From a virus, in IMG/VR virus record IMGVR_UViG_3300003690_000018, positions 1 to 44,180 of that record: a stretch of DNA of 44,180 nucleotides. The stretch is one strand, 5' to 3'. The translations under genes and the position numbers were made by a program. Below are positions 11,701 through 44,119 of this stretch, in pieces; position 1 is the first letter of the stretch, and every line of letters starts with the position of its first letter. Below the pieces are notes generated by a model. The model was given only the letters and a program-made list of their open reading frames with translations, was not told where the DNA came from and made no database searches.

Positions 11701-14700
11701 GAGCGGACTGGGCATCGTAATCCCCAGGTCTTCCGTGGAGAGTTGCTGTCTAAGATAGGGAGGTAGGCCGGCATGAATTTGCTCGTTCATTGTGCGCCAG
11801 CGACCATAGGCAGCCATTACCTCTGGCGAGGAGGTCGTGCGTCTTGCCCAGTTCGCCATCGTGCCCTTGTACCAAAATGAATAGGGGTACACCCATGACA
11901 GCCAGGAGTCTATGTTCCTGCGGTCTGAGTAATTGAGCAGAGCGAAGTTGCGTGCCTCTCGTCCCGTCTGTCCGGCTATTGTCTTGTACTCTGAAATATT
12001 GTGGGCAGCGCCCATAGCCCAGGCCTCAAGTGCCTCGATAGTCTCGTGTGACATATTCCTCCAGCCCTGCCTGCCCCAGCGCTCCCCTATGGTTTTAGTA
12101 AGACTGTCAACTGCCTCCAGCATGAGGCGTGGTTGCATCTCTACCTCTTCGGGAGTGTAGGGCCCCGGCTTACGCTTACCTTTCCACGAAATAGTATACG
12201 CCTTATCCATTTCATTGTAGAAGTTCTTCCATATCTTTGTGGAGGCACGACGATACTCAATCCAGGTGATGCTCTTCCTTAGGCTTCTGACATGTGGGGT
12301 CAATACGCTTACACCCTTTGGGGTCTCAGCGGTCATACTACCTGGGACGATCATGCCATTGATCTCGTTTAGCTTTTTCTTTGCCTCTTTAAGCAACCTC
12401 ATTCCTTCTTCCGCCGTCCATTTCCCCAGGCCACCCACTTTATCGTCGATTGCCCTCCGAGCTTCTTCATACGGTCCCACAGGGAGTGTTCCACCGCTCT
12501 GAGCGGCGTATGCTTTCGCATCGGCTTGGAATAGCTGCTGGGCGCGGTGTGCGGGCTCCTGCATATTGGCATAGGACAGGGCAAAATCTTCATCCGAGAG
12601 GCGCTGGCCAAGATCGACTTTTAGTTGCGTGGCCTTTTCTAATTGATCTCTTAGTTCATTATCGGGACCAATAAGCATGCCCGGCGGCATGCTTTCATCG
12701 GCCTTTGCTAAGGACCTTTCAATATTGACGCGCAACTTTGCCATGCCCTCTCGAAATTCTTCTAGGGTCTCGGCGGTAGGGAACCCGGTCGCGGCGGCAC
12801 GCTGTTCGCCGCGAGTGTACCCACGGAGAAGGCTATCGAACTGGAGACGCTCTTGCGTCCATCCGAGAGAGGCGAACTGTGTTCTCTCATCCTTGGTCAG
12901 AATTCTCCATGCGTCGTAGGTACCGTTCTGTTCCTTGAGCCACTCTATGGCTTTCGGCACATCTCCATAACTGTCTCTAATTTGATGGATAAGTCCTCTT
13001 GCCAGTTCGTCCCCCAAACCTCTCGTGAGAATATCGCCAAGCTCTGGTATGGCTTTACCGAGAACTAGGTTGTGGTCCAGGAAGCGTTTGGCTGCGGTGT
13101 ACACAATGCGTTTGGAGAAGGCCTGCTCGACCGCCTGAGCGCCAATGGGTATGTCTGCCTTACTGCCCTTCGGGACAATCTTTCCAATGAAGGGGAAGTC
13201 AGCAAGAGTCTTGGAGCCGGAGAACCATCTCTTACCCTTGCCTAGCTCTTCTCCCGCACGCGGCAAGCCGCCGGCTCCACCCATAGCGAGGTCCGCTGCC
13301 CACACGCCTGGCAACTTCTTTGCCATGAATTCTTCTATTTCCCCTACTCCCGTAAAGGAGAATACACCGTCAGCAAGAGCCGTAAATAGATTGTTCTGGA
13401 AGTTGCGAGCCGAATAGGCAGGAACCCAATCTGCAAACGGATACCACAACTTACTGTTGACGAAGTCCCTAACTCTCCCTGCTCCTAGTCTTGACCACTC
13501 CAGTGCATTGAACGGCACCTCAGCGAGACCCATTTCCTGGGCGGCCTTGCGAATATCCCATTTTTCCATAGCGCCAGCAGCGCCCCGCTCAAATATGGGG
13601 TAGTCCTTAGCCTTTTTGCCAATAGCCACCCACTCCTGGATCGTGCGCATACCTTCTAGTTCCGGCATTAGCAGTCTGGTGGCGGCGGAATTGAGGTTGT
13701 CCATTGCAGACGTAAGTTTCTGCATTTCGCTAAGACCTTCAGCCTTAAGAAGGGCATCCATGCGGTTGGGGTTCACCAAGCCGTTCGTGGGGTTTACTAG
13801 CAACTCTCTCATAAGAGAGCCAGCCAGCTTGCCAGCCTCGGACAGCGCCTCGGGATAGGGAGTCAATAATATCCTAGCCTGATCCTGTTTGTGCTCCCAT
13901 ACTGCTATTAGTTGCTTGAGCCCATCACCGTCTATCTGCTTCCCTGGGTATCTATCAATGACTGGCTTGGGCTCTGCAAGGTCTAGCATTGCCTGGGCTA
14001 CCTTCTTGACTCCATGCGTCTGCGTTTTGCCCAGCGCCTTCGATGCTCCGAAGACTTCCTTGACGCGCAAGAACACAGCGCTTGCCCCGTCAGAGGCTAA
14101 CTCTATCATCTTTGCTCGTATTGCTGTTCTAGTCGGAGCTCCGGGTAGCCAGCCTCGCAAATAATCCGGTACTTTGTCGCCAAGGAATTTCGCCTCGGTC
14201 ATTCCAACCTGCTGCATTCGCAGAACCTCTGCGCTGTTGAGCGCTGTTGGCGCGAATTTCTTCATGCGCGCAAGTGTACGCCGGGTTATACGAGCGGTCT
14301 TTATCAAACGGTATGCTCGGTTCGCGCGGCCAGTAGCAGCAGTTAAACCCAGAACCCCTGTTGTCCACATGAGTGGGTCGAGAAGAGTCTGCCCTACAGC
14401 TTCCATCAACGGATTAGACTCACCCGGCAATCCCTCTCTGACTAACTCATCTGCAATCTCCACGTCTGTTGCTCCTTCGGACTTGCGGCGCTCATAGTAG
14501 TATGCAGATAAGGGGTGAGCCTTGATTGCGTCTATGCGTCCAGTCTCTTTATTGTCAAACCAACCAAGCTCTACCAGATTGTTCCCGACGAAGTCCCCAT
14601 CCCCGTACATGGCTTTGTTGGGTTCTTCGCCAAGGTCTATGACACGGGCGATATATCTAAGCTGCGCTGTTTCGCCGGAGTAGGTCATTCGGGTGGCGTC

Positions 14701-16131
14701 ACGTAGGGCAACGTTCACCTCATGCGTGTCGCCGTATATGCTATGGGCGATTTCTCGTAGATTGCCGGGGTGCTCAGGCAAGCCCGCTTGCACGAGCGCG
14801 GCGTTCTGCGCCGGATGATACGCGCCCGTAGAGAGGACGCCCTCTGGGCGCTCGTATGTCTTGCCATTGGGGAGCAGTACGCTATTCACTCCGGCCCCAA
14901 GCTGAGTGTGCTGTGCCACAACTCCGATGCCGCGCTCTACTGTTTGAGCGGGGACATTGAGAGTTCCGAGAGAGCCCATAACCGAAGCCTTTAAGAGTAC
15001 ACTCCCCTTGCCAACTATCGTGCGCTCCTCTTCTGAACTAATAGGTACACGACGCTGCTCGATGATGTGGGGGGCGATGCCCCCCACGCCGCCATCGGGA
15101 GCTTCACCATATCTGAGCGTGTCGTCATACACGTTGACAACAAGTTCGCCTGTCTCCTCGTCGCGACCAACTACCTTTTCGTTTGGCAAAGGCATGTAGT
15201 CAATTCTTATCTTCTCGTGGAATTCCTCCTCGGCCTTTTCAAGGAATTGCCCCACTCCTTTGACGGCTTGCGCAGTTACGTCTGGTGGGATAGAGAGGTA
15301 CGTCCCCTCCGGGTCTTCGCCTGTAACCGGGTTCAAGCGTGAAGCTTGCCATGCTGGCCCTGGGCCTGTGCCGATTTTTATGTCGCTTATCCCGCCCAGG
15401 AGCCTGCCTGCGCCTTGCTGTATCTCTTCCCAAGTTTTTTCTGTTCCGTACCTGCTTTGAAAGCCCGCTCGTTCCTCGGGTGTCCCCAGAGGGAACGAAG
15501 GGGGAGCGTACCTGCTTTGAAAGCCCGCTCGTTCCTCGGGTGTCCCCATTCTGGCGTCGCGGGGGGCGAACCTGTGTCGTATTTTGAACTCTTCTTCCTC
15601 TTCCTCTTCCTTATCGAATAACTCACTTAGAGTACGAGAGTTTATGCTCTGGGGCATGCTGTCCTGAAAGCCCCTCCACGCTCTCTTGAGCATGTCGTAG
15701 TTTAGTCCACCTGTATCGTAGTCTCCCGGCGCAAGAGTAGGATTCTCTTCTGGTTGTAGGACTGGGAAAAGCGCATCCTCTACTTCCGGCCTGCCAGGCT
15801 GCGGCCCGCCAGGCTGCGGCCTGGCAGGCTGCGGCCCTCCAACTTGACCTCCGGGACCGCCCTGTCCGGGAAGACTAAATGATCTTTGCCGACCTACAAA
15901 TGGCGGCAATGCTCTTTCGATTCTTGATACAAATCTTGGGTTCTGTCGCACAGGCAGAGGTGCAGTCGGTCTTGGCGTAAATAGGCGAGGAACCCTAGCT
16001 CCAGCGCCTTGGTCGAAGCGACGCGGGGCACGACCACCGCTACCGCTTGGGGGCCTTATGGGGCTGGAGCCACGGCGTGGAGCTTGCCGCATCCTCAAGC
16101 TTGGGTTTCTTACTCGTGGACGATAGGGCAT
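8734..16131 (-). CDS. Giant 2465-aa virion protein, candidate internal/ejection protein
   Basis: A very long gene, one sixth of the genome. The first 250 residues are low complexity: Arg/Pro-rich start MPYRPRVRNPSLR, Gly/Pro/Gln repeats near 105-120, an EEEEEEE run near 176, and two copies of TPEERAGFQSRY near 196-230. Then come long helical regions with a hydrophobic patch TLLDPLMWTTGVLGL near residue 580 and WVYPYSFWYKGTMANWARR near 1420. A Gly-rich linker lies near 2210 and the C-terminal tail is basic. Size, position among portal, LysM and scaffold genes, and amphipathic helices suit a protein carried in the head and ejected with DNA. I found no RNA polymerase, protease or nuclease motif. 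The start has GGGAG 5 nt upstream. Confidence 0.6.
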   Translation of the reverse strand: MPYRPRVRNPSLRMRQAPRRGSSPIRPPSGSGGRAPRRFDQGAGARVPRLFTPRPTAPLPVRQNPRFVSRIERALPPFVGRQRSFSLPGQGGPGGQVGGPQPARPQPGGPQPGRPEVEDALFPVLQPEENPTLAPGDYDTGGLNYDMLKRAWRGFQDSMPQSINSRTLSELFDKEEEEEEEFKIRHRFAPRDARMGTPEERAGFQSRYAPPSFPLGTPEERAGFQSRYGTEKTWEEIQQGAGRLLGGISDIKIGTGPGPAWQASRLNPVTGEDPEGTYLSIPPDVTAQAVKGVGQFLEKAEEEFHEKIRIDYMPLPNEKVVGRDEETGELVVNVYDDTLRYGEAPDGGVGGIAPHIIEQRRVPISSEEERTIVGKGSVLLKASVMGSLGTLNVPAQTVERGIGVVAQHTQLGAGVNSVLLPNGKTYERPEGVLSTGAYHPAQNAALVQAGLPEHPGNLREIAHSIYGDTHEVNVALRDATRMTYSGETAQLRYIARVIDLGEEPNKAMYGDGDFVGNNLVELGWFDNKETGRIDAIKAHPLSAYYYERRKSEGATDVEIADELVREGLPGESNPLMEAVGQTLLDPLMWTTGVLGLTAATGRANRAYRLIKTARITRRTLARMKKFAPTALNSAEVLRMQQVGMTEAKFLGDKVPDYLRGWLPGAPTRTAIRAKMIELASDGASAVFLRVKEVFGASKALGKTQTHGVKKVAQAMLDLAEPKPVIDRYPGKQIDGDGLKQLIAVWEHKQDQARILLTPYPEALSEAGKLAGSLMRELLVNPTNGLVNPNRMDALLKAEGLSEMQKLTSAMDNLNSAATRLLMPELEGMRTIQEWVAIGKKAKDYPIFERGAAGAMEKWDIRKAAQEMGLAEVPFNALEWSRLGAGRVRDFVNSKLWYPFADWVPAYSARNFQNNLFTALADGVFSFTGVGEIEEFMAKKLPGVWAADLAMGGAGGLPRAGEELGKGKRWFSGSKTLADFPFIGKIVPKGSKADIPIGAQAVEQAFSKRIVYTAAKRFLDHNLVLGKAIPELGDILTRGLGDELARGLIHQIRDSYGDVPKAIEWLKEQNGTYDAWRILTKDERTQFASLGWTQERLQFDSLLRGYTRGEQRAAATGFPTAETLEEFREGMAKLRVNIERSLAKADESMPPGMLIGPDNELRDQLEKATQLKVDLGQRLSDEDFALSYANMQEPAHRAQQLFQADAKAYAAQSGGTLPVGPYEEARRAIDDKVGGLGKWTAEEGMRLLKEAKKKLNEINGMIVPGSMTAETPKGVSVLTPHVRSLRKSITWIEYRRASTKIWKNFYNEMDKAYTISWKGKRKPGPYTPEEVEMQPRLMLEAVDSLTKTIGERWGRQGWRNMSHETIEALEAWAMGAAHNISEYKTIAGQTGREARNFALLNYSDRRNIDSWLSWVYPYSFWYKGTMANWARRTTSSPEVMAAYGRWRTMNEQIHAGLPPYLRQQLSTEDLGITMPSPLRFNLEASISPMYSVLGPDFIDESRRRTRMFGWKEGGAYAEDLGSLGPVLFPLILWAGALTSGLDDDPTSPLIWKDPEAVAAWFNYTGGLPKAIRSFTAKLPDGTLGIPPGGLVVDPQIWMRHIIETGGPKGMFSAMTQYERNRVGEVIANMRDNPRGDIEPGDWEAQIDYAAYQQNGRIWDEATHEAFRTTAPWEVSAWGIGIGWRGSSLTETDFSDMWADQRSTYLRAQEATKEEGWMLWQDFDERWPQAKTLQLSRAPGPIRDDRWIWEAMSRAGIGGTAIWEDVGVGDKTLDLWFELRSTQYMTTKLRNELLDGAIAINFRMRPGTPEESLRQIEARIKWLPAQDVLHERFPDWVWQLEQDDNTQREIYGEEASKEWRDKLAPNQRAALHGLWDTRNALYLDDPLLTEYYRDLENYADLVRGQFFDKWEEIAGGEEIFEEVREAWRDFDNQNARREKAILFDKYPWLSEYYAAANVFFDLTLPNAVHDFAEGFESPFVPELREDTEARDEREKAVDSYVEEQSLRFTPTDERPSDIEVETERAVRDEIQALADAEEAESEEKKARAEATSSYIDPDSRNKYIINYLQPLIGMSAEMDIPVKELLNATFQDVNGNEVPRWPIGGGFALANLVPGGSIREWLIANDDPRWMGLIGDILGMTPEEREDMEDRFPDIHEVYNVATEYRAPSINALANIIGWKDVNYRADNTFSLSVRTVGGTTSSRGGSGGTGTIGPGTGMVVSQDGSISFDYGDDLSSKEAGQIINEMAKAQLGEDIIEIVNQYNAMLVINPTRAQELYAEFGDRMDAYDDMYDQMKGAYNAGKRGDYAKALAMALGTTATDTSGRKPRKHTRIPYTGPKRDYGRSFSRSGGGGRPSAPARAPARAQQKDNSAEWLAFEQSLSSDPSLLVLIGDYFAMSVSARNALMRRNPALQAWVARQTPELLASLEAAYGDWTRSQGNLLRQSSSRRINPRITRVYGQRSQQSGL
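15447..15548. repeat. 42-bp direct repeat, period 60 bp, in the giant-protein gene
   Basis: Positions 15447-15488 and 15507-15548 are identical and encode two copies of a TPEERAGFQSRY segment. Diverged copies of the same DNA occur near 17457-17520 in the upstream LysM gene, so the segment has spread between two virion genes. Confidence 0.85.
15785..15840. repeat. Short tandem repeat coding for PQPxxPQP
   Basis: Three near-identical copies of CCAGGCTGCGGCC lie about 15 bp apart and encode the ARPQPGGPQPGRP stretch of the giant protein. This is a slippage-prone low-complexity linker. Confidence 0.7.
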
Positions 16132-22777: not shown

Positions 22778-23611
22778 ATGCTTTTGAACCCTGGCTTTGA
22801 AGCCGGACAGTGGTATCAGAAAGAGGACGATAGATTTTCAAGGGATGACGTCCGCTTTGGGCCGATACCGGAAATGGCAATCCCTAACGGGTGGGAGCTC
22901 GAATACGCGCTATCACCAATTAGGGATGACTTCTTCTACCATCCGACTAAGTCCACGCCGCTACTGCCCAACCAGACGCAGGGATACGGTAGGCCCGAGG
23001 TAGTAACGTGGCTCAATGACAATTTCGGGCCCGACTTTCAGCATGCCTACGCATGGCGTGATGGAGTATATACACTAAAAATATTCACCGCATACTATCC
23101 CGTATGGTGGCGGTTACATCAAAATGTCAGCGGACTAACTCCAGGAGAGTCGTATTTATTCCTGGCACCAATATTTCAGGAACTAATTTCACACTACAAT
23201 CCAACGATTGTGGCTCCCGATCAAATGTCGGGCGAAATACGAGTGTCCGTCGGGCAAGACATCGACAATCCTCGGAAAACAACTGGGTGGCTCAACGGAA
23301 ACCATATTCCATTTATGCAGTGGAATATTCTTCGACTCCCTTTCTCTGCCGAGGATACTCAGGAGCGAATACACGTTGAAGGGCGCGCCCCCTGGGGACT
23401 GGATAATGTAGCATTTTTTCTAGATGGTCTGTCCCTGAGAGCTGTTTCCCCTCCAGATGAAAATCAAACGCCCGACAGCAACGAATACAATATGTTAGAT
23501 TCTATCGAGAATAACCTCGAATTCATAGAGGTTATGGTTGATGACATATTTGGCTACGTCAAAAACCTTCGCGAATTTGGCGGGGACAGTGACGGGAGCG
23601 ATGCGAGGTGA
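22778..23611 (+). CDS. Carbohydrate-binding-like beta-sandwich protein
   Basis: 277 residues. It starts MLLNPGFEAGQWYQ, continues to IPNGWELEYAL, then YTLKIFTAYYPVWWRLHQNVSGLTPGESYLFLAPIF. This is the layout of family-4-type carbohydrate-binding modules and other galactose-binding-like folds: N-x-G-F-E opening, Trp-rich middle, GLxPGxxY strand. The C-terminal 50 residues are acidic with a helical segment (NMLDSIENNLEFIEVMVDD). There is no signal peptide. AGGAG precedes the ATG. It overlaps the methyltransferase by 4 bp (GTGA). Glycan recognition on the host surface or in the wall is likely; it could also be a virion accessory protein. Confidence 0.6.
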   Translation: MLLNPGFEAGQWYQKEDDRFSRDDVRFGPIPEMAIPNGWELEYALSPIRDDFFYHPTKSTPLLPNQTQGYGRPEVVTWLNDNFGPDFQHAYAWRDGVYTLKIFTAYYPVWWRLHQNVSGLTPGESYLFLAPIFQELISHYNPTIVAPDQMSGEIRVSVGQDIDNPRKTTGWLNGNHIPFMQWNILRLPFSAEDTQERIHVEGRAPWGLDNVAFFLDGLSLRAVSPPDENQTPDSNEYNMLDSIENNLEFIEVMVDDIFGYVKNLREFGGDSDGSDAR

Positions 23612-24636
23612 TCACCCAGGCTAACGCATTACAGCTGCCGCTGGCCGATGGTGTGGTGCAGACTTGCATCACCAGCCCGCCTTATTGGGGACTCCGCGAT
23701 TACGGGGAACCCAACCAGCTGGGTCTCGAACATACTCCCGAAGAGTATGTGGATAACATGGTGACTGTGTTCCGGGAAGTGTGGAGAGTTCTTAGGCCGG
23801 ATGGGACGCTGTGGTTGAATTTGGGTGATAGCTACAGTGGGAGCGGAAAGGGTAGAAACTCCGATGGGACACACCAAGACAGCGAAGGGTGGAAACAAGG
23901 AACAAGTCGCGGAACAATTGAAGGACATTTATTTGGTGGCAATGTCCCTACCGGCCTAAAACCCAAAGACCTTTGCGGCATCCCCTGGCGCGTCGCCTTC
24001 GCATTACAGGCTGACGGGTGGTATCTCCGCTCGGACATTATATGGCACAAGCCGAACCCGATGCCTGAGAGTGTGACGGACAGACCAACGAAGGCGCATG
24101 AGTACGTGTTCCTGCTCAGTAAGAAGCCGCGCTATTATTATGATGCTGATGCGATAAGGGAGCCGCACACATGGGTGGAGAATCGACCTTCTGGAATGGA
24201 GCGGAACGCCGAAGCGTACAGAGAAAAGGTGAAACACTCTAACAATAAGTACGGCGGCGGCGGTAGTGGGTTTCAGGGACATTCGGGAAGTACGAAGGCA
24301 GATGGTACGTCACTGAATCACCCCGGTGGCCGCAACAAACGAACTGTGTGGAGTGTCACAACGCATTCCTACAGCGGCGCGCACTACGCAACGTTCCCAC
24401 CAGACTTGGTAAGGCCAATGGTGCTGGCGGGTGCGCCTGCTGGCGGGTTGGTTCTCGACCCGTTCTGTGGCAGCGGAACAGTGGGTGAAGTCTGCCGCAT
24501 GCTACCGGAGCCGCGTCACTTTATCGGCTTCGACATATCCCACGAGTATTTGTCCACGCAGGCGATAGTTCGAAGCGAGCAGCGAACCCCGGCCAAACTC
24601 TTGAAGGACTTGCCGATGTTCGCTGCGATGCCGTAG
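23608..24636 (+). CDS. Beta-class DNA methyltransferase, orphan
   Basis: 342 residues. Motif IV TSPPYWGLRDYG lies near residue 22 and the AdoMet motif DPFCGSGTVGEV near 289, the permuted order of beta-class N4-cytosine/N6-adenine enzymes. A target-recognition region lies between, including a Gly-rich stretch near 210-230. SPPY is more often N4-cytosine, but N6-adenine is possible. No restriction endonuclease gene is adjacent, so protection against host restriction or regulation is the likely role. It starts at GTG overlapping the previous stop. Confidence 0.88.
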   Translation: MITQANALQLPLADGVVQTCITSPPYWGLRDYGEPNQLGLEHTPEEYVDNMVTVFREVWRVLRPDGTLWLNLGDSYSGSGKGRNSDGTHQDSEGWKQGTSRGTIEGHLFGGNVPTGLKPKDLCGIPWRVAFALQADGWYLRSDIIWHKPNPMPESVTDRPTKAHEYVFLLSKKPRYYYDADAIREPHTWVENRPSGMERNAEAYREKVKHSNNKYGGGGSGFQGHSGSTKADGTSLNHPGGRNKRTVWSVTTHSYSGAHYATFPPDLVRPMVLAGAPAGGLVLDPFCGSGTVGEVCRMLPEPRHFIGFDISHEYLSTQAIVRSEQRTPAKLLKDLPMFAAMP

Positions 24637-28646: not shown

Positions 28647-29639
28647 ATGAGAGTGGTAAAGGAGTATCCCTGCTGTGGAGGCAGGGCCTACGTTATGGAG
28701 CACGGTCTTGCTTCTCACAAGACCTGCCCCAAATGTGGGACAGACTGGATGGTTATCGGTGTCAGCGTGGCATCTGACACCGAGAGTCACTCGTGGGAGT
28801 GGTCGCGAATGAGCAGGACTACTGCTTGTTTGACGACCTACCTCTCCCGGCTGGCCCTGTACCGCAGGAAACAGGGAAGTCGGAAGTGGGGATTGAGTCT
28901 GCATAACGTTGTGGACTTTTATCTCCTAACAAACATGTGCGTCAACCTCAGCGCCATTGGCGCTGAGGCGCTCAAGGCGCAGGTTGACTCACAACTTTCG
29001 GAGCTGAGCAATGCGTTCGCGCTCATGCTACGGGACTACCTGTACCTGGCGAGTATGGGTGAGGCAAGACATGGTATGAATGGGAAGAACCTTGGTCTGC
29101 GGATCAGGGAATTCACGAAGATTGGGCAGGGGCGTGAGGCAGCCTGTTGTCTGGGCTTGAAGTATCACCCAGACGACGCTCTACCAACGCTGGTGAATCT
29201 ATTTCGCCAGGGAGAGTGGAAAGGTGGCTATGGAGGTAAGAGCTGGGGCGATATAGCCGCCGGTGCGCTGATGTACAACACCGTACCCAACGCCTTGTTC
29301 ATCGACCATGCCGTGGATTTACAGCACAACAACGGCACGGCGTTCAACAAGGCGAGTGCCTTCAAGCACATGAGGATTGGGAAACCAGTATTGCCCGACT
29401 GGTTCCAAAGCTTCTTGAACTACAAGGCAGAGACAGACTGCCTCCATGGCTCATTGGGTTTCTGGAACCCTCACGAGGCATGGACGCTGGCAAGTACCAG
29501 CACTGTGATGCTGGGGCAGTTGTACTACCCTCTGTACGGAGAGAAACCTGTCCGTACCGTTGACCCCGAAGGCGATACCTTCGGGGTGTATGAGTACGAG
29601 TCGCCCGAGTGGCGGCGAGAAGCGCTGGAGGTGTTCTAG
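28647..29639 (+). CDS. Zinc-ribbon-headed protein of unknown function
   Basis: 330 residues. The N-terminus carries CCGGRAYVMEHGLASHKTCPKCGTDW, a C-x-G-G/CxxC ribbon that likely binds zinc. The rest includes GEWKGGYGGKSWGDIAAGAL and NALFIDHAVDLQHNNGTAFNK, conserved-looking and possibly catalytic (His/Asp/Asn-rich), but I do not recognise the family. The gene contains perfect 10-bp hairpins at 28756-28783, 28946-28968 and 29563-29587. The stop overlaps the next GTG by 1 bp. Confidence 0.65.
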   Translation: MRVVKEYPCCGGRAYVMEHGLASHKTCPKCGTDWMVIGVSVASDTESHSWEWSRMSRTTACLTTYLSRLALYRRKQGSRKWGLSLHNVVDFYLLTNMCVNLSAIGAEALKAQVDSQLSELSNAFALMLRDYLYLASMGEARHGMNGKNLGLRIREFTKIGQGREAACCLGLKYHPDDALPTLVNLFRQGEWKGGYGGKSWGDIAAGALMYNTVPNALFIDHAVDLQHNNGTAFNKASAFKHMRIGKPVLPDWFQSFLNYKAETDCLHGSLGFWNPHEAWTLASTSTVMLGQLYYPLYGEKPVRTVDPEGDTFGVYEYESPEWRREALEVF

Positions 29640-30487
29640 TGTTGAAGTTCCAACACGCCCGCACTGCTGACGAAGCGAGGGCCATCTACCTCAGGGTGTC
29701 TCAGCTCTTGCCTGTCATAGTCCCCGACTGGGGGGCGGCGCAGGAACTGCTCTTTGAGCACGGCGCGCTGGCGCTGGCAAGGCATGAGCCAGCCATGTTC
29801 GATAAGATGTCGGGTGAACAAGAAGTCGTCTCCGCCATTTACTTATACCTGGCGGAGACGCGCGAGAATGTCACACCGGAGTCAATAAACGCCCTGATCC
29901 TGGCATCAGGGCTGGCAAAACTGGCCTATTTCTACCCAGGCCACGCAGAGGAGTTCTACCTCATGGCCCACAACATCGTGCACCTGACCAAGCAGGTCAC
30001 GACGCTTGATGGCATGTCCATCAAGGAGGAGAATGCCTCCGTGTTGTTCGCTCCCGTTGACCATGATAAGTCAGCAGTAAATGAAAGCTTTGTGCAATGG
30101 GTCGCGGAAGCCTATCCACCGTCAGGCAAGGTCAGCGCCGGCCTAGTGGAAGATTTGCTTGATGCTCCCATGAGTAAGAAAGAATACTTCTGCGTAGGCA
30201 TGCTGAAAGTCGGGCCCGAAATTGTCGATGAGACTATCGCGATTGGGAAGAAGGATGACAAGGTGCTGCATGAGCCAACTCCATCTACTCAGGAGAATGC
30301 AGCCCTGCTCGTAGCGATATGGGATGAGACTATCGCGATTGGGAAGCAGAAAGTAGATAAGTGCCTGTCTGAAGCAGCAGCGATAGGCGCTTCGGAAGAC
30401 GTGCAGGTAGAGATGATGTCTCTATCTGCAATACTTGATCTGAAGAAATCCGTGCTTGCTGAGGCGGCATCAGACGAAGAAGTTTAG
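29639..30487 (+). CDS. Helical hypothetical protein with internal repeat
   Basis: 282 residues from GTG 29639, with GGAGG 7 nt upstream; the longer frame lies inside the previous gene. It is mostly helical and acidic toward the C-terminus. The octapeptide DETIAIGK occurs twice (near residues 197 and 229), encoded by identical 24-bp DNA at 30228-30251 and 30323-30346. An 11-bp perfect hairpin lies at 29827-29860. No family recognised. It is followed after 11 nt by the phosphatase-like gene. Confidence 0.62.
   Translation: MLKFQHARTADEARAIYLRVSQLLPVIVPDWGAAQELLFEHGALALARHEPAMFDKMSGEQEVVSAIYLYLAETRENVTPESINALILASGLAKLAYFYPGHAEEFYLMAHNIVHLTKQVTTLDGMSIKEENASVLFAPVDHDKSAVNESFVQWVAEAYPPSGKVSAGLVEDLLDAPMSKKEYFCVGMLKVGPEIVDETIAIGKKDDKVLHEPTPSTQENAALLVAIWDETIAIGKQKVDKCLSEAAAIGASEDVQVEMMSLSAILDLKKSVLAEAASDEEV
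30228..30346. repeat. 24-bp direct repeat coding DETIAIGK
   Basis: GATGAGACTATCGCG and the following nine bases recur 95 bp apart in the same frame; the flanks differ, indicating a recent in-frame duplication. Confidence 0.85.
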
Positions 30488-30498
30488 AGGAGGTTACA

Positions 30499-31914
30499 AT
30501 GAAAAATGGATACAAGCAGAACAGTTTCGTAGGTGTAGGAGGGTATGACCACGGCGTAGGGTATGACCACAAGGATTGTCATACAGGAAACAACCCCATC
30601 CTGAAGCTGGATGGGGGCGAGGGCGTACTCTATGCAGGAGGGTGGTCGAAGAAGGCCACCCATAATGGGGTGGCGGTGGTCGACCTGGCCCCAACAAAGT
30701 ACGGTGCCAGGTCGCAGGAGGAGGTGTACGACCCGTCCACCTTCGGGGAGATAGCCTTCAAGCGCACGCTGGAAGGCATGAAACCTGATGAAGACGAACG
30801 CATATACTTGCCGTTCTTCATCCAGGATTACGGATTACCAAAGTACTCCGTAGAGGTATGGCCGCTGCTCGCGGCAGACATAAAGGCCCTGATGATGGAG
30901 GGCGTGGACGTGCTGGTTGCCTGTGTCGGTGGGCACGGGCGCACGGGCATGGTCACGTCAATCGTCTGCCACCTGCTTGTGCCCGAGGTGGTAGGTGACG
31001 ACCCCGTTGCCTGGATTAGGGGGGTGCATTGCTCCAATGCGCTGGATACCCAGGCGCAGGAGGAGTATGTGTTTGGGGTTCTCGGCATCCCCATCCCCGA
31101 CCTGTATAAACCTAAGGGGAAAACAGGCACCATCGACAAACTCCACACCCCCGTCAGCATAAGGGAGACCCTCAAGGGGTGGGGGATAAAATACAAGACC
31201 CAGATGGCTGGGGTTGTAGAGACAGTGTGGTGCCTCCTGGGGGGGAAGTACCAGGAGGTCGACTGGGTGAAGAAGCCGGAGCGCACCATCAAGGTGCTCG
31301 ACGGCCTTGAGTGGGAGGTGTACGACAAAGTAGGAGACAAGACTTCGCCGGAGGACATTGAGGAGTCGAGGCTTGATGAGCTAAACGAACAGGCAGAGAT
31401 ATTCCTCGCCGGACTCGAAGGCACTGAAGAGGACGCATGCGAGGAGGCAATCTTCGAGTACCTCGGCAAGCTCACCGAGACTGAGGTAGACATCGTAGCA
31501 AATCTTCTCTTCGCATGGAGTGACGCCACCTTCAACAAGGGTAGCGAAAGTGTCGGCAAAGATCGCGACATCCGGTGGAGAGATTTCGCCCTCTGCGTGA
31601 CTCGGGAGGAACTGCTTGCTGACATTGATAGGCGAGCGGAGGGCCTTGCAGACAACGTGAGGGCGGCCTTACTGCCTCGCTATGCGAGTGAGCGCTTTAT
31701 TATGATGCTCATACTTGAGATGTGGGGCATTCCCTTTGCTGAAGAGCGTACCATCTCAGCCCAGACAGGGCTTGGGGAATGGGAGCTGTTCACTGTCCGC
31801 CCCGATGGCAAGAAGAAACGCATCGTGTCCATGGACATGGACAAGGATTGCATTCAATACGAGGGCAGTGGTGACTTCGCACTGTCCGAAGTAAAGGAGG
31901 CCCGCAATGGGTAA
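30499..31914 (+). CDS. Cysteine-based protein phosphatase-like enzyme with a 270-aa C-terminal extension
   Basis: 471 residues. The PTP/DSP signature CX5R appears as ACVGGHGRTGM with Cys142 and Arg148; the usual preceding His is Ala. Asp110 in FIQDYGLP is well placed as the general acid, and CSNALDTQAQEEYVF near residue 180 matches the Q-loop region. The N-terminal 60 residues are Gly/His-rich with a repeated GGYDHG/GYDH. Residues 200-471 form an extension I cannot assign, with acidic helices. The enzyme should hydrolyse phosphoprotein or another phosphoester. It overlaps the PPDK-like gene by 8 bp, implying coordinated synthesis. The start has GGAGG. Confidence 0.78.
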   Translation: MKNGYKQNSFVGVGGYDHGVGYDHKDCHTGNNPILKLDGGEGVLYAGGWSKKATHNGVAVVDLAPTKYGARSQEEVYDPSTFGEIAFKRTLEGMKPDEDERIYLPFFIQDYGLPKYSVEVWPLLAADIKALMMEGVDVLVACVGGHGRTGMVTSIVCHLLVPEVVGDDPVAWIRGVHCSNALDTQAQEEYVFGVLGIPIPDLYKPKGKTGTIDKLHTPVSIRETLKGWGIKYKTQMAGVVETVWCLLGGKYQEVDWVKKPERTIKVLDGLEWEVYDKVGDKTSPEDIEESRLDELNEQAEIFLAGLEGTEEDACEEAIFEYLGKLTETEVDIVANLLFAWSDATFNKGSESVGKDRDIRWRDFALCVTREELLADIDRRAEGLADNVRAALLPRYASERFIMMLILEMWGIPFAEERTISAQTGLGEWELFTVRPDGKKKRIVSMDMDKDCIQYEGSGDFALSEVKEARNG

Positions 31915-34507
31915 GTATGTGCATATGTTCTCCACGTTAGAGAGAGACCCCGCCGTACTGGGCGGGAAGGGTTATGGTCTAGTTGACATGACCGCACTAG
32001 GCTTGCCCGTACCACCAGGGTTCGTCATCTCAACGCAGGCCTCCAAGGATTACCTTGCGGCAGGCAACGTGATACCTGATGGCCTGTGGGTTGAGGTGGA
32101 CGAGGCGCTCTCCTCCCTGCAAGGGGAGACGGGCAGAATACTTGGCGACGAGCAAGACCCTCTGCTTCTCTCAGCCCGTAGTGGCGCGCCCGTGTCCATG
32201 CCTGGCATGATGGACACGGTGCTCGACATAGGCATGACACCAGATATTGCGGTGAGCTTGTCTATTATCACCTGCCGAAAGTTTGCGTACGACAACATGC
32301 GCAGGCTAACACAGATGTTCGGCACTGTGATACTGGGCCTACCCGAGAGCGTACTTGATATGCCCGCCAAGGCATACCTGCTGGCACATGACAACGGAGG
32401 CCTCACGGGCAATGAAACAGTGGAGCTTAGCAATAGGCTCCTAGATGTGTACAAGAAGTACACGGGCGTACCCTTCCCCGACGACACGCTCATGCAATTG
32501 CGCCTTGCAATCGAGGCTGTGTTCCGTTCATGGAACAGCGCGCGAGCAATTGCATACCGAAAGGAGATGGGCATATCCGACGACATTGGTACTGCCGTGG
32601 TCATACAGACCATGGTGTTTGGGAACATGGGTGAGAACTGTGCCACTGGCGTGATGATGACCCGTGACCCCACCACTGGAGAGAACGTGCTCTCAGGAGA
32701 CTACCTCCTGAATGCACAAGGAGAAGACGTAGTCAACGGGATGTTCGTCACAAGTCCTCTCTCGGATTTGAGAGAGGAAGCCATCGGGGACGTTTACGCA
32801 GAGCTGGCTGCCATAGCAGCAAAGATGGAGCGTGAGCGCCGTGAGATGCTTGACATCGAGTGGACAGTGGAGCAGGGCAAACTGTGGGTACTACAGGTAC
32901 GCACGGGCAAGCGCACCGCTGCTGCCGAGGTTCGGATAGCTGTCGAGATGGTCGAGGAGGACATGATAAGCAAGACCACGGCCATACGCAGGGTGGGTGT
33001 TGACAAGTTCTCACGTCTGCTACACCCCAAGTTCGGCCCCATGTCTATAGCGGGGAGCCACCTTCTAGCTGAGGGTATACCCATCACCCCAGGTGCGGTG
33101 TGTGGGTTCGTCGCCATGTCCGCCGATGCGGCTGTGAAGATGACCAAGGAAGGCAAGAAGGTCATACTCATGCGCCCCGAGACAGTTCCCGATGATATAC
33201 ACGGCATGATTGCAGCCATCGGTATAATCACCGGAACTGGCGGTAGCACGTCACATGCAGCTCTAGTTGCAAGGGAACTTGGCAAGGTGTGTGTCGTTGG
33301 CGTTCAGTCAAGCGGTATAGATGAGATAGAGGAGGGAGATATTATCAGCCTTGATGGTACGTCGGGCTGTGTCTATAAGGGTGCAGTTGACGTCATCCCT
33401 GCCGACATGAACAACAAGTGGCTGCTGAAGATGCTTCAGTGGGCTGATGAGTACGTCACTTTCAACATCAATGCACATGCCAACTCTCCCGCGAATACCA
33501 AGCTCTCCTTTGGTTACGGTGCAAACACTGTCCTGTACAAGACAGGGCAGGACATAATGGAGCAGCAGATGGAGGGCGACGTTCTTGACATCGTGGTGCC
33601 AACGGGTCTGCCAGATTACGCGATGGATACGATGGAGAATAATATGTTCTCGTTCCTGAGACAGGAGATGGTTCTCCTGTTCGCGCAGGCCGACAATGCG
33701 CCTCTCAGCATCCAGCTACTGGACATACCCATCACCACCATCTCTGCTCGTCTGAGTAACTGGAAGCTAACGCAGTCCAACATGCGAGTAGACATGCTCA
33801 TGGCCAACAACATCACGCATGCACTCTCCTTCCACCGCGCGCAGAAGTACGTCAAGAAGGCGGGCGAGCACAACGTAGCCGAGCAGAACCCGTCCTTTGG
33901 CATGAGAGGCACCCGCATGATGATAGCAAGGCCACGCCTGTTACGAGCACAACTCAAGGCAATCTTCAGTGCTAGTGACTCTCTGGACTATAACGGAGAC
34001 CTAAGCATAGTGCTGCCCCGCGTAACTGACGCTGAAGAGGTGCTGGTTATCAGGGATACTATGGAGAAACTTGGATTAAGAGAACATGCCAAACTGGGTG
34101 TTGTGATTGACACACCCCGTGCATGCATGGAGGCGGGAGCACTGGCATCGGTTGATGGCGTGGAGTTCATCATCATCGACACTGACCGCATCACTGAGTG
34201 CATCTATGGCATGAGCAAGCTAGATGCTACGAACTGGATGATGGACTACTACATCAGAGAGGGGGTCTTTGAGGACAACCCGTATGAGGTACTCGATGAG
34301 GTGGCGGTACTCCCGTTCATCGAGATGGTGATGGACAACACCACAGGGGTACGCAGGGGAATAAGTGGCTCACATGCATCACGACCCGAGCTACTACACA
34401 AACTGAGTGGCATGGGCTTTGACTTTGTGGTACTGCCCGCCGCCGACATACCGATGGCACGCATGGCCATCGCTGACCATGAGATGAAACAGGAGGTTTC
34501 GTCATGA
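31907..34507 (+). CDS. Pyruvate,phosphate dikinase homologue with a diverged pyruvate/PEP site
   Basis: 866 residues, full PPDK length. The ATP-grasp domain is intact: LGGKGYGL, LLSARSGAPVSMPGMMDTVL, VFGNMGENCATGVMMTRDP, LNAQGEDVV and MLDIEWTVEQGKLWVLQVRTGKRT. The swivelling phosphohistidine domain keeps GGSTSHAALVAR with His450. The C-terminal TIM barrel aligns in order but differs at catalytic positions as I recall them from the Clostridium enzyme. Arg561 is Gln (IQLLD), Glu745 is Asp (VVIDTPRA), Asn768-Asp769 is Asp-Arg (DTDRIT), and the acid Cys831 is Ser (GISGSHASRP). So ATP-driven His phosphorylation looks retained, while PEP formation is doubtful. A changed acceptor is an inference. 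Confidence 0.9.
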   Translation: MGKYVHMFSTLERDPAVLGGKGYGLVDMTALGLPVPPGFVISTQASKDYLAAGNVIPDGLWVEVDEALSSLQGETGRILGDEQDPLLLSARSGAPVSMPGMMDTVLDIGMTPDIAVSLSIITCRKFAYDNMRRLTQMFGTVILGLPESVLDMPAKAYLLAHDNGGLTGNETVELSNRLLDVYKKYTGVPFPDDTLMQLRLAIEAVFRSWNSARAIAYRKEMGISDDIGTAVVIQTMVFGNMGENCATGVMMTRDPTTGENVLSGDYLLNAQGEDVVNGMFVTSPLSDLREEAIGDVYAELAAIAAKMERERREMLDIEWTVEQGKLWVLQVRTGKRTAAAEVRIAVEMVEEDMISKTTAIRRVGVDKFSRLLHPKFGPMSIAGSHLLAEGIPITPGAVCGFVAMSADAAVKMTKEGKKVILMRPETVPDDIHGMIAAIGIITGTGGSTSHAALVARELGKVCVVGVQSSGIDEIEEGDIISLDGTSGCVYKGAVDVIPADMNNKWLLKMLQWADEYVTFNINAHANSPANTKLSFGYGANTVLYKTGQDIMEQQMEGDVLDIVVPTGLPDYAMDTMENNMFSFLRQEMVLLFAQADNAPLSIQLLDIPITTISARLSNWKLTQSNMRVDMLMANNITHALSFHRAQKYVKKAGEHNVAEQNPSFGMRGTRMMIARPRLLRAQLKAIFSASDSLDYNGDLSIVLPRVTDAEEVLVIRDTMEKLGLREHAKLGVVIDTPRACMEAGALASVDGVEFIIIDTDRITECIYGMSKLDATNWMMDYYIREGVFEDNPYEVLDEVAVLPFIEMVMDNTTGVRRGISGSHASRPELLHKLSGMGFDFVVLPAADIPMARMAIADHEMKQEVSS

Positions 34508-34932
34508 AGGCAAGAGCAAGGGAACACCTCTCTATGCAGTTGATAGAGAGCGCTTTGAAGGCCCTCTCACAAGATGGCAATAACATCAAGCCCAAGGACG
34601 CCATCTATATGGCCCTGCTTGCAGGCATAGGGTACGCACAACTGGCGCAGGCGCGTGTCATTCGAGATGGCACGCATTATCAGTTCAAGAAGGACATGCG
34701 GGATGCTATACAGAGTAGCCCTGATGATGCTGAAGCTATCGTTGAGCATTACATGGGCTTGATGGGCTACGACCATGAGGTTCCGTCGGACGCCATGCCA
34801 GAAGATAGCAAGAAGGATGACGAGGTCCTTGACTACTTCGATGACGTACTCAAGGACATAATGGAGAACATTGACACAGAGGCCGATGCTGACAACGAGG
34901 AGGATGACGATTTGGAATCCAGCACTTCCTAG
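34504..34932 (+). CDS. Acidic small protein, last gene of the operon
   Basis: 142 residues. The N-terminal half is helical (HLSMQLIESALKALSQDGNN...AIYMALLAGIGYAQLAQARV); the C-terminal 45 residues are very acidic (DTEADADNEEDDDLESS). It overlaps the PPDK-like gene by ATGA. An acidic tail suggests a binding partner, DNA mimic or decoy, but nothing specific can be claimed. It converges with the opposite-strand lysin gene, their stops overlapping by 4 bp. Confidence 0.65.
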   Translation: MKARAREHLSMQLIESALKALSQDGNNIKPKDAIYMALLAGIGYAQLAQARVIRDGTHYQFKKDMRDAIQSSPDDAEAIVEHYMGLMGYDHEVPSDAMPEDSKKDDEVLDYFDDVLKDIMENIDTEADADNEEDDDLESSTS

Positions 34933-41199: not shown

Positions 41200-43218
41200 T
41201 CAGAGAGTGTTGGGCAGATGCTTGGTCAAGGCAAGTAAGTCATCCTGTCCTAGAATGTTGCCTGCTTTTACGGTCAAGCCGCGTGCTCTGGCGCTAATTT
41301 TGTATTGGTCTCCTACCCACTGTGCCCACGTGTAACCGGGCAGGGGTTTGCTGCGACTGGGTGTATTCCACCAACAAACATAGCAATCCCAATTGCCCCA
41401 GGATTGTAACTGTATAGAGTCCAATGTGTCAATGACCTCTCGGTCGCTGGCGTCAGAACAGTCGACCACCACGACCATTTCGGGGTCGTTCCTGTGGTGC
41501 ACGTTCCAGAACATACCCTCGGGCGGCGAGCCCTGCGCACCCCATGGCACCAGACCGGGGTGGGGCAGGTCTAGGCGGCCAAAGCGCTTGAACCAAGCCT
41601 CGGCTTCCTCTGCTGAGCGAGCTATTTTCCAAGGGAACTCGTCTGTCCACAGCCCGTCCCATCCTTCACCCTTACTCTTGGAGCCTGAGCGCAAGCGATA
41701 CAGCAAGCAGGAAGCATTCGTCACCTTTTCTGCCCTAAATCCGTAGCTGGTCGCATACGCCCAATACCAGGCATCCTCGGCGCGCTCGTGACGCTCACGA
41801 TGGCCACCTGCCCAGGCGTATACCTCACTCTTGACAAGGGCATTGTAGGGCATTTGGTTGAGATGTGCCATCTGGCCATACCAGGTATAGTTGTCATAAG
41901 GCCACGAGTTGCGCTGATAGTCCTCACCCTGCTCGTTTATCATGTCCATGTGCCCGTAGGCAATGTGCAAGGATGGGTTACTGTCAAGCTTTGACGATAG
42001 TGTGGCGAGCGTAGCGGGCGGCAGCATATCATCGGCGTCAAGAAACATAATGTAACGACCTCTAGCCTTGTCCACTCCGAAGTTCCTGGTGCCGCACAGC
42101 TTGAGATTCCGGGGCGTACGGAAGTAGCGGAAGCGCCCGTCTGACTCTTCCCACTCTCTACCCACCTGTGGCGTGTTATCATCACTTGAGTCGTCAACGA
42201 TTACGCACTCCCAATCGGTCATCGTCTGACCCAGGATAGAAACCAAGGTATCTGGCAAGAAGTGTGCCAGGTTACACGCAGGCACCACCACTGATACCTT
42301 GGGGCGCGGCGTGGTGGACTCGTTGTACACTCGTGCAAATATCTTTGCGTACTGGCCTATCTTGTCCTTCCATTGCCAACGCTCCTGAGCATCCGCCCTA
42401 CAATTAGGCGACAGGCGCTCGCGCTCCGCCAGACACCTACGTATACAATCAACAAGGGCTTCGTAATCACCGTATGGCGCAAGGTACCCGGTTTCACCAT
42501 CAACGACAATCTCCGAATTGCCGCCGTAATCCCAGCCCGCAATGGGTACTCCAGAAGAAAGAGCTTCGAGTGTACCGATTCCAAACGTCTCGCGAGCCGT
42601 TGATAGATACACGCCCGCATTCTGCACCCACTTTCTCATGTTGTCATATGACATGCGGCCAATAACCTTGGCATCTATATGCTCAACAGGCATAGTTGAT
42701 ACCACGCGAAACGTCCCGGCCCAGGCGGTGGCGTCTCTCTGCTTCATAAGATTTAGCACGTCGTCTGGGTTACTTACGCTATCCGCGCGGGCCTTGTTAT
42801 AAAGCACATAGCCTTCGTTCTCGCCCGGCTCCCATAGATTATTGTCAACTCCGTGATAGATAACCTCCGGGTCACGTAGCATGCCGCGTGCGATGGCGCG
42901 CGCTACCCACTTACTGGGCGCTGTGATTACCTGTGCGCGTATAAGATTTTCTGTCAGGACTTCGTTGACCGTCTGGTATGAACTAGGCCAAACATACTCC
43001 GCCCAGTACAGGCCGTGGGAGCTGGCCACCATCGGCACATCTGGGAGATAGTCCGCTCTGTTGCCCGCATGTAGGTTGACCACGTCAGCCTTCATGGGAT
43101 GATCAACTACCTCTATGCCAAAGGTGGGTAGGAACTTACGCTGTGCGTCCACGCATCTCCTAATTCCTCCGTCGCCCTGGTCATCGCGTGCGAAACTGGG
43201 TGCTATGTATACTCTCAC
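41200..43218 (-). CDS. Bifunctional glycosyltransferase (GT4-like plus GT2-like fusion)
   Basis: 672 residues from GTG 43218 with AGGAG 7 nt upstream. Residues 1-310 are GT-B: TARETFGIGTLEALSSGVPIAGWDYGGNSEIVVDGETGYLAP is the classical GT4 C-domain motif. Residues 320-540 are GT-A: KVSVVVPACNLAHFLPDTLVSIL, VIVDDSSDDNT, and YIMFLDADDMLPP with its DAD metal site. The last 130 residues contain another NWDCYVCWW strand and may be a third, partial domain. It likely builds a short glycan with the neighbouring epimerase and DegT/ColD-like products. It overlaps the epimerase gene by 38 bp. Confidence 0.83.
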   Translation of the reverse strand: MRVYIAPSFARDDQGDGGIRRCVDAQRKFLPTFGIEVVDHPMKADVVNLHAGNRADYLPDVPMVASSHGLYWAEYVWPSSYQTVNEVLTENLIRAQVITAPSKWVARAIARGMLRDPEVIYHGVDNNLWEPGENEGYVLYNKARADSVSNPDDVLNLMKQRDATAWAGTFRVVSTMPVEHIDAKVIGRMSYDNMRKWVQNAGVYLSTARETFGIGTLEALSSGVPIAGWDYGGNSEIVVDGETGYLAPYGDYEALVDCIRRCLAERERLSPNCRADAQERWQWKDKIGQYAKIFARVYNESTTPRPKVSVVVPACNLAHFLPDTLVSILGQTMTDWECVIVDDSSDDNTPQVGREWEESDGRFRYFRTPRNLKLCGTRNFGVDKARGRYIMFLDADDMLPPATLATLSSKLDSNPSLHIAYGHMDMINEQGEDYQRNSWPYDNYTWYGQMAHLNQMPYNALVKSEVYAWAGGHRERHERAEDAWYWAYATSYGFRAEKVTNASCLLYRLRSGSKSKGEGWDGLWTDEFPWKIARSAEEAEAWFKRFGRLDLPHPGLVPWGAQGSPPEGMFWNVHHRNDPEMVVVVDCSDASDREVIDTLDSIQLQSWGNWDCYVCWWNTPSRSKPLPGYTWAQWVGDQYKISARARGLTVKAGNILGQDDLLALTKHLPNTL

Positions 43219-44119
43219 GTTCGTTCTCCTTGCGTAACCATGCGTCAATAGTCTCCCCAAGACCATCAATCATAGGCCACTTGGGTTCCCATCCTGCTGC
43301 TCGCATCTTGTCAATAGAAAGTTCCACTCTTTCCGGCTCTCCCTCAACGTCCTGGCCGTGACTCCAGCTTCCATTCCACTGGTATATCTCTTTTATCATG
43401 CCCAGAACAGAGTTGACCCTTGTGCCATAGCCAGAAGAAAGGTTATATGTACCTGCGAGGGTAGTCTCTGTTGCCATGAGTACCCCGGCAGCCAAATCCT
43501 TGACATAGATAAAGTCACGGGAGTGTTCACCCGTACCATTTATTTTGAACGGATCATTGCCTATCATGTGTGCTAGGGCGTGTGGCACGAGTTGGTTCTC
43601 GCCTACTTGTATCTGCCTGGGGCCGTACACGTTACCATAGCGGAAGACAGTATGGGAAGTAGCTAGTGCGCGCACATAGTTCTCTGCCGCTAACTTGCTG
43701 ATACCGTATGGCCGGGTTGGTTCTGTCCTGTCACCTTCGCTTATAGGTAGCGCCAGGTCTTCATCGTAGACAGCGGAGGTGCTTGCGAGGATGAAGTGAG
43801 CGCCCCACTTGTCGGCTAGATTGAGCATACGTAGGGTGCCGAGGATATTGGTGCTGGCATCCTGCATAGGATAGATATGGCTATATAGCAGGCTGGGCTG
43901 GGCTGCCTGGTGACAGATGACATCGAAGGGGCCGACACGGGGCTTCATTATGGGTAACTCAAGGATGTCGAGGTCGAGGAAGTCCGCCTTGAAGTTGACA
44001 TGCGTAAAGTTGCCCGTACTCAGGTTGTCAATAATGGCAACGTCATGCCCGGCGTTGATGTAGGCATCTACAATGTGACTGCCGATGAACCCTGCCCCGC
44101 CGGTTACTAAAATCCGCAC
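43181..44119 (-). CDS. NAD-dependent sugar epimerase/dehydratase (GalE-like SDR)
   Basis: 312 residues. N-terminal TGGAGFIGSHIVD is the NAD-binding GxxGxxG. ASTSAVY and PYGISKLAAENYV supply the catalytic Ser/Thr and the YxxxK pair of extended short-chain dehydrogenases. FRYGNVYGPRQ and RDFIYVKDLAAG are typical. It acts on a nucleotide-linked sugar, as a 4-epimerase or 4,6-dehydratase; which is not certain. GTG start, 2 nt after the DegT/ColD-like stop when the ends are joined, so the two are translated together. Confidence 0.87.
   Translation of the reverse strand: MRILVTGGAGFIGSHIVDAYINAGHDVAIIDNLSTGNFTHVNFKADFLDLDILELPIMKPRVGPFDVICHQAAQPSLLYSHIYPMQDASTNILGTLRMLNLADKWGAHFILASTSAVYDEDLALPISEGDRTEPTRPYGISKLAAENYVRALATSHTVFRYGNVYGPRQIQVGENQLVPHALAHMIGNDPFKINGTGEHSRDFIYVKDLAAGVLMATETTLAGTYNLSSGYGTRVNSVLGMIKEIYQWNGSWSHGQDVEGEPERVELSIDKMRAAGWEPKWPMIDGLGETIDAWLRKENERESIHSTQFRTR

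Follow-up and report, generated by a model that had tools for sequence, protein, structure and literature searches.

Phage homologs of PPDK have been published as glycolytic auxiliary metabolic genes (PMC12038007, PMC9229204, PMC10671443, PMC10141217). A PPDK homolog also lies in the stretch of DNA that we analyzed (the window), which is a linear IMG/VR viral record of 44,180 bases that includes genes for terminase, portal, head, and tail proteins. For this locus, the accepted annotation of a glycolysis-boosting enzyme becomes a question: which molecule receives the phosphate?

The two halves of the window dikinase

The gene at 31907-34507 (on the plus strand, like the rest of its operon) encodes a PPDK-type dikinase of 866 amino acids. 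An earlier note on this DNA had called it a full-length PPDK homolog, and it is: the protein matches three Pfam families (PPDK_N, E = 1e-42; PEP-utilizers, 1e-20; and PEP-utilizers_C, 7e-23), TIGR01828 spans residues 3 to 857, and the protein aligns over its full length with solved PPDKs, with similarity far beyond chance. The TIGR01828 score was 702 bits, which is below the family cut-off of 843.

We assigned the functional residues by alignment to PPDK from Clostridium symbiosum (1ggo/1kbl), whose numbering is used here. The ATP-grasp residues and the phosphohistidine (K22, R92, E323, Q335, R337, and H455) are intact, as the earlier note had it; H455 corresponds to His450 of the window protein (codon at 33254-33256; GGSTSHAALVAR). 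Equivalents of R92, E323, Q335, and R337 are invariant in 97 of 97 dikinases, K22 is present in all 94 that cover that position, and the phosphohistidine is present in 96 of 97. Because the ATP-side residues are invariant, we conclude that the ATP half-reaction is under selection.

In the pyruvate/PEP barrel (33407-34480), six residues are altered: R561K (window position 545), R617Q (603), E745D (735), N768D (760), D769R (761), and C831S (820). All six have established catalytic roles in PPDK. The earlier note had the changes at E745, N768, D769, and C831 right but put a glutamine at R561; the residue at R561 is Lys545, whereas the glutamine (Gln603) replaces R617, so six residues differ and not five. 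The same six are all kept in the seven full-length PPDKs on other viral contigs. A proper alignment, which the note had named as a way to refute its reading, thus finds that the catalytic Arg, Glu, Asn-Asp, and Cys are not conserved in the window, and the note's case for a remodeled acceptor site holds: judging from its sequence, the window dikinase is unlikely to be a plain PPDK or PEP synthase. The C-terminal part remains clearly recognizable as a PPDK barrel (hhalign 99% against canonical barrels), and R665 is retained (as R667). The window keeps a whole barrel, which may bind an acceptor by itself, a point against the relay that we propose below.

The window dikinase therefore resembles PPDK (TIGR01828) in its ATP-grasp and swiveling phosphohistidine domains, its length of 866 amino acids, and its recognizable barrel; it differs in the six barrel residues, in its sub-cut-off score, and in having a phosphatase and another protein, GGYGG, encoded alongside. 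Rifampin phosphotransferase (NF041857) and the prodigiosin ligase PigC (NF052631) have dikinase cores that retain the ATP/His chemistry but serve another acceptor, as we propose for the window dikinase. However, they have another domain order and other acceptor domains, and they gave weak domain-level matches only. We rejected rifampin phosphotransferase as an identity for the window protein, which scored 54 bits against NF041857 (cut-off 999) through shared domains only, with no full-length match that includes the rifampin-binding domain.

Linkage of dikinase, phosphatase, and GGYGG across viruses

The gene order in the window is GGYGG, a 292-amino-acid open reading frame, the phosphatase, and the dikinase, followed by a gene for an acidic protein. 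GGYGG is our name, after a motif, for the family PHROG 20946 (phrog_20946); the window's member has 330 amino acids (28647-29639) and is the proposed acceptor-side partner of the dikinase. The next open reading frame (29609-30487) overlaps it by 31 bp and has an uncertain GTG start. It had no match in Pfam, PHROG, or PADLOC, no relative among the fetched loci, and no similarity to the PPDK barrel or to GGYGG, and we include it in the module tentatively, from its position only. The phosphatase (30499-31914; 471 amino acids) overlaps the dikinase by 8 bp, and the dikinase overlaps the operon's last gene (34504-34932) by 4 bp. Our open reading frame calls agree with the earlier note on both overlaps. 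The last gene encodes a protein of 142 amino acids with an acidic tail; we found no relatives of it in Pfam, PHROG, or the fetched loci, and the 4-bp overlap suggests that it belongs to the module.

The note had also proposed the phosphatase as a possible partner of the dikinase, had suggested searching viral databases for the pair, and had said that its absence from all related phages would weaken the module idea. The phosphatase is a real partner: the pair recurs in many viruses, so the note's idea withstood that test. A third gene recurs with it that the note overlooked, GGYGG, the best-conserved partner. Using the window dikinase sequence alone to search for relatives returned none, and alignment queries were needed. 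tblastn reported dikinases in phages of Vibrio, Rhizobium, Rhodobacter, and Stenotrophomonas, mostly matching residues 17 to 466 only. These phage dikinases are adjoined by tyrosine-phosphatase-like genes and by a gene for a hypothetical protein of about 330 amino acids.

Our set of loci came from three sources: IMG/VR, which we scanned with alignments of GGYGG and of the dikinase; phage records that carried annotation; and the window itself. After overlaps were merged, it comprises 121 distinct contigs. The GGYGG scans required HN[NT]GxxFNK or a narrower form, and from each scan we used the 80 best loci. Among the matches listed, 70 of the 85 contigs from the GGYGG scans contain a dikinase and 79 of the 85 contain a phosphatase; 9 of the 15 contigs without a dikinase, again among the matches listed, end where it would lie. 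The dikinase scans gave 68 contigs among the matches listed, and 56 of these contain GGYGG. The other 12 are seven contigs with canonical-type PPDKs, four that are cut off at an end, and one long contig; if the canonical-type PPDKs and the end-cut contigs are left out, then GGYGG is present in 56 of 57 contigs from the PPDK scans (matches listed).

All three families lie on one strand in every contig that has them (86/86, among the matches listed), but contigs from the same clade are related, so these are not 86 independent events. The order dikinase-phosphatase-GGYGG-phosphatase is found in 72 of these 86 contigs (among the matches listed). In the window, too, the three families are within a few kb of each other on one strand. 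When we scanned 84,980 prokaryotic genomes, just five GGYGG loci were found, all five with the triad; four of them are in MAGs, and two are on contigs of about 95 kb. Since so few triad loci occur in prokaryotes, the module looks viral. L114, L101, and L150 are loosely linked to the window by similarity of terminase and portal, and no such similarity was seen between the window and the compared siphophage loci of 80 to 110 kb.

Some phages encode GGYGG but no detectable dikinase: the L114 group and L139 have GGYGG and a phosphatase, and L092, L095, L105, and L128 have GGYGG alone, fused to repeat regions. Thus, the dikinase is not strictly required. No consistent substitute gene was found among the neighbors of the GGYGG genes that lack a dikinase.

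In L092, L095, L105, and L128, GGYGG is near the N terminus of proteins of 764 to 1,058 amino acids, the rest of which resembles, by eye, repeated small beta-barrel segments; no dikinase was found in the same record. Three genes downstream of the fusion in L095 is a gene of the adenylosuccinate synthetase family (L095:14350-15777). L139:5182-12658 is a row of genes for an AAA_5 ATPase, a DUF7192 protein, a protein of 917 amino acids that has a weak GGYGG region, and a phosphatase of 504 amino acids, in a record without a dikinase.

The dikinases beside GGYGG are not all of one kind. The commonest type is a short core from the PPDK branch (phrog_18609, in siphophages of Vibrio, Rhizobium, Rhodobacter, and Stenotrophomonas), in whose C terminus of about 200 amino acids no similarity to the barrel (hhalign probability 0.1%) or to GGYGG could be detected. 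As in the window, this core is encoded next to phosphatase(s) and GGYGG; unlike in the window, the C-terminal region is unrelated to the barrel, and the gene order differs. Phage "PPDKs" with the short core thus retain nothing but the ATP/phosphohistidine half, and they are part of a module of three genes that is restricted to viruses. In L171 and L180, the dikinase core and the GGYGG domain are in a single open reading frame, with a phosphatase next to it. L096, L101, L147, and L150 have a split dikinase, with separate phosphohistidine and ATP-grasp open reading frames, beside GGYGG; those that were scanned had PEP synthase, not PPDK, as their best NCBIfam match. The window represents another type, a full-length PPDK with a remodeled barrel.

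In a tree of the dikinase cores, the window's core is on a long branch. Both it and the fused cores lie near the canonical PPDKs; it is outside the short-type groups, and both are apart from the majority of short cores, a placement that has weak support (81-82). These comparisons support at least two recruitments of a dikinase, from the PPDK and PEP synthase branches, and more are possible. If different dikinase families did join the same partner, they would plainly illustrate how a chemistry can be kept while its acceptor is exchanged.

Directly upstream of GGYGG, the split-dikinase phages encode a conserved protein of about 225 amino acids (L101:8568-9245, L096:6185-6871, L147:8263-8934, and L150:8739-9518). 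By eye, it resembles a SprT-type fold, with HNxxH replacing HExxH and a C-terminal zinc ribbon; neither the barrel nor GGYGG showed similarity to it. A gene of Bacillus phage G (gp139; L006:5998-7095) encodes 365 amino acids with the dikinase's ATP-grasp and His domains only. It adjoins an FtsZ-like gene, and no GGYGG or phosphatase was found in its surroundings.

The GGYGG protein and the phosphatase

The window's GGYGG protein matches phrog_20946 (E = 9.8e-13) and is homologous to the hypothetical protein of about 330 amino acids in the phage loci (blastp, to 1e-10). An HMM from which the window and other atypical members had been left out recovers it at E = 1.3e-15. Its N terminus has CxxC pairs, and a helical core follows, with E139-x-R-H, W-x-GGYGG-x2-W200, D220, and H227-N-N-G-x2-F-N-K235; the profile and the E.RH, GGYGG, and HN[NT]G..FNK motifs are all present. 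The signature HNNG..FNK (residues 227-235; 29325-29351) is near-invariant across 83 members of the family. Together, the near-invariant E.RH, GG..W, D, and HN.G..FNK suggest a pocket that serves catalysis or binds a ligand.

The AF2 model of the window protein has a pLDDT of 69 overall and about 90 over core residues 80 to 240, and the model of a member of a GGYGG clade, which is almost wholly helical, has a pLDDT of 95.1 and a pTM of 0.89. Foldseek found no fold match in the PDB for either model (best E = 1.2 for the window model and 0.58 for the clade member), and just four viral proteins in BFVD match the window model. The sequence has no relative in Pfam, among PDB sequences, or in PADLOC, and the resources that we searched give no function, fold, or context for phrog_20946. 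GGYGG is therefore predicted with high confidence to be a helical fold without a solved counterpart in the PDB, so the best-conserved member of the module has no match among solved folds. The family is virus-specific.

The phosphatase has a single CX5R motif (ACVGGHGRTG), with the P-loop C142-VGGHG-R148-T (C142 to R148 at 30922-30942) and a long C-terminal extension. It matches phrog_17568 (E = 1.1e-9), and by itself it gives only a weak match in Pfam (PTP-SAK). A profile of 11 phage phosphatases, including the window's, matches solved PTPs (E = 3.5e-16), which places these proteins in the PTP/dual-specificity superfamily. CX5R is intact in 182 of the 186 phosphatase hits. L207 (DLP5), L281 (DLP3 gp141), and phrog_17568 are labeled "thymidylate synthase" in PHROG or GenBank; these proteins are CX5R phosphatases, and from their sequences the label looks wrong.

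PADLOC matched none of the module's proteins (its sole match was to a nearby methyltransferase), so we rejected the idea that the module is a known anti-phage defense system.

A proposed phosphoryl relay and its acceptor

We think it fairly likely that the dikinase, the phosphatase, and GGYGG form a virus-specific phosphoryl-relay module. This module probably moves phosphate from ATP to an acceptor other than pyruvate, and it was probably not described before: we found no description of the triad in the literature searched, which left out most subscription papers. In the first step, the ATP-grasp domain would use ATP to phosphorylate the swiveling His450; this chemistry is that of the homologous PPDK and PEP synthase. 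The phosphohistidine would then pass its phosphate to an acceptor that is held or modified by GGYGG. Pyruvate is not the expected recipient, given a barrel that is mutated in the window and missing in relatives. GGYGG is placed on the acceptor side because no other part accompanies every version of the dikinase and because it replaces the barrel in the fused open reading frames. Finally, the CX5R phosphatase(s) would hydrolyze or reset the phosphorylated product. By analogy, the system may work in the manner of dikinases that serve other acceptors (rifampin phosphotransferase, PigC, and glucan water dikinase), yet it falls outside those families or shares only the core with them.

We rank the acceptors as follows: a nucleic acid is our tentative first choice, a protein is a possible but doubtful second, a small molecule or nucleotide is rather unlikely, and a sugar polymer is improbable. 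We are evenly divided on a broader claim, that this is a novel viral modification system. In it, a phosphohistidine relay would drive the new-fold, virus-only GGYGG to phosphorylate a macromolecule, either phage DNA or RNA or a protein of the host, and cysteine phosphatases would be dedicated to the system. The relay would have been recruited on two or more occasions, from different dikinase families, and the "PPDK auxiliary metabolic genes" of vibriophages would be parts of the system.

If the relay acts on nucleic acid, then a base, sugar, or end would be phosphorylated in DNA or RNA held by GGYGG, and the phosphatase would trim or complete the modification, giving restriction resistance or repair. 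What makes nucleic acid attractive is that the triad isolates with hosts include DLP3, which has the full triad (gp135, 139, 140, and 141) and whose DNA withstands 15 restriction enzymes through a modification of unknown kind (PMC7326821). In several phages, the module is located between the genes for terminase and DNA polymerase, which also fits, as does the absence of module proteins from the mass-spectrometry list of DLP3 virion proteins. (On that absence from the DLP3 list, we rejected a virion role for the module proteins.) However, other candidate modifiers exist, namely a methyltransferase in the window and a glycosyltransferase in DLP3 (PMC7326821), and standard hypermodification genes were not found consistently in module phages. 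The thymidylate synthase-type dUMP hydroxymethylase (PF00303) is in 0 of 16 module phages, ThyX is in only 4 of 16, and PF18723 was absent from the four phages searched, with M6 as the positive control. PF18723 is the helical domain of the 5-hmdU DNA kinase, a phage domain that acts in nucleic-acid phosphorylation; GGYGG is also helical but has no profile similarity to it. We therefore rejected canonical thymidine hypermodification, given the PF00303 and ThyX counts and the lack of similarity between GGYGG and the helical domain of the M6 5-hmU kinase. Taken as a whole, nucleic-acid modification by the relay is possible but less likely than not.

Somewhat less probable is a protein phosphorylation switch, in which the phosphohistidine would modify a host or phage protein via GGYGG and the phosphatase would be its antagonist, in host takeover or counter-defense. 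The phosphatases' superfamily fits this version, viral signaling roles are plausible, and there is a precedent in the relay from PTS enzyme I to HPr. But no HPr-like or other carrier gene was recognized, and no PADLOC model matched.

Phosphorylation of a sugar polymer would resemble glucan water dikinase, a PPDK-type dikinase that is paired with a dual-specificity phosphatase (laforin/SEX4-type) on a non-pyruvate acceptor. The pairing of an ATP-grasp/His dikinase with such a phosphatase is matched here, and glycosyltransferase genes occur in the window and, in some phages, close to the module. Against this analogy, no carbohydrate-binding domain or carbohydrate-binding relative of GGYGG was recognized, and GGYGG is unlike any solved fold; we consider a sugar polymer improbable as the relay's target.

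The view in the vibriophage literature is that an auxiliary metabolic PPDK or PEP synthase raises the supply of PEP or ATP during infection. It has the published annotations and the overall homology to PPDK on its side, but it does not account for the six altered residues in the window's barrel, the relatives without detectable barrel homology, the near-obligate linkage with a phosphatase and a new-fold protein, or the fusion to GGYGG and the replacement by a PEP synthase-type dikinase. The glycolytic reading is poorly supported, and we think it very improbable. Least probable of all is that a decaying cellular PPDK is hitchhiking in a phage operon, as the barrel substitutions and the long branch might suggest, because the frame of 866 amino acids is open, the ATP-side residues are intact, the gene overlaps are tight, and the same partnership is found in many viruses.

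Three other features of the window are of note. A 2,465-amino-acid protein without a PHROG match is encoded on the minus strand (8734-16131). An N6/N4 DNA methyltransferase gene (23608-24636) is on the module's strand. At both ends of the record (36-1178 and 41200-44119) are genes for an aminotransferase, a glycosyltransferase, and a nucleotide-sugar epimerase, which are perhaps a surface-sugar cluster.
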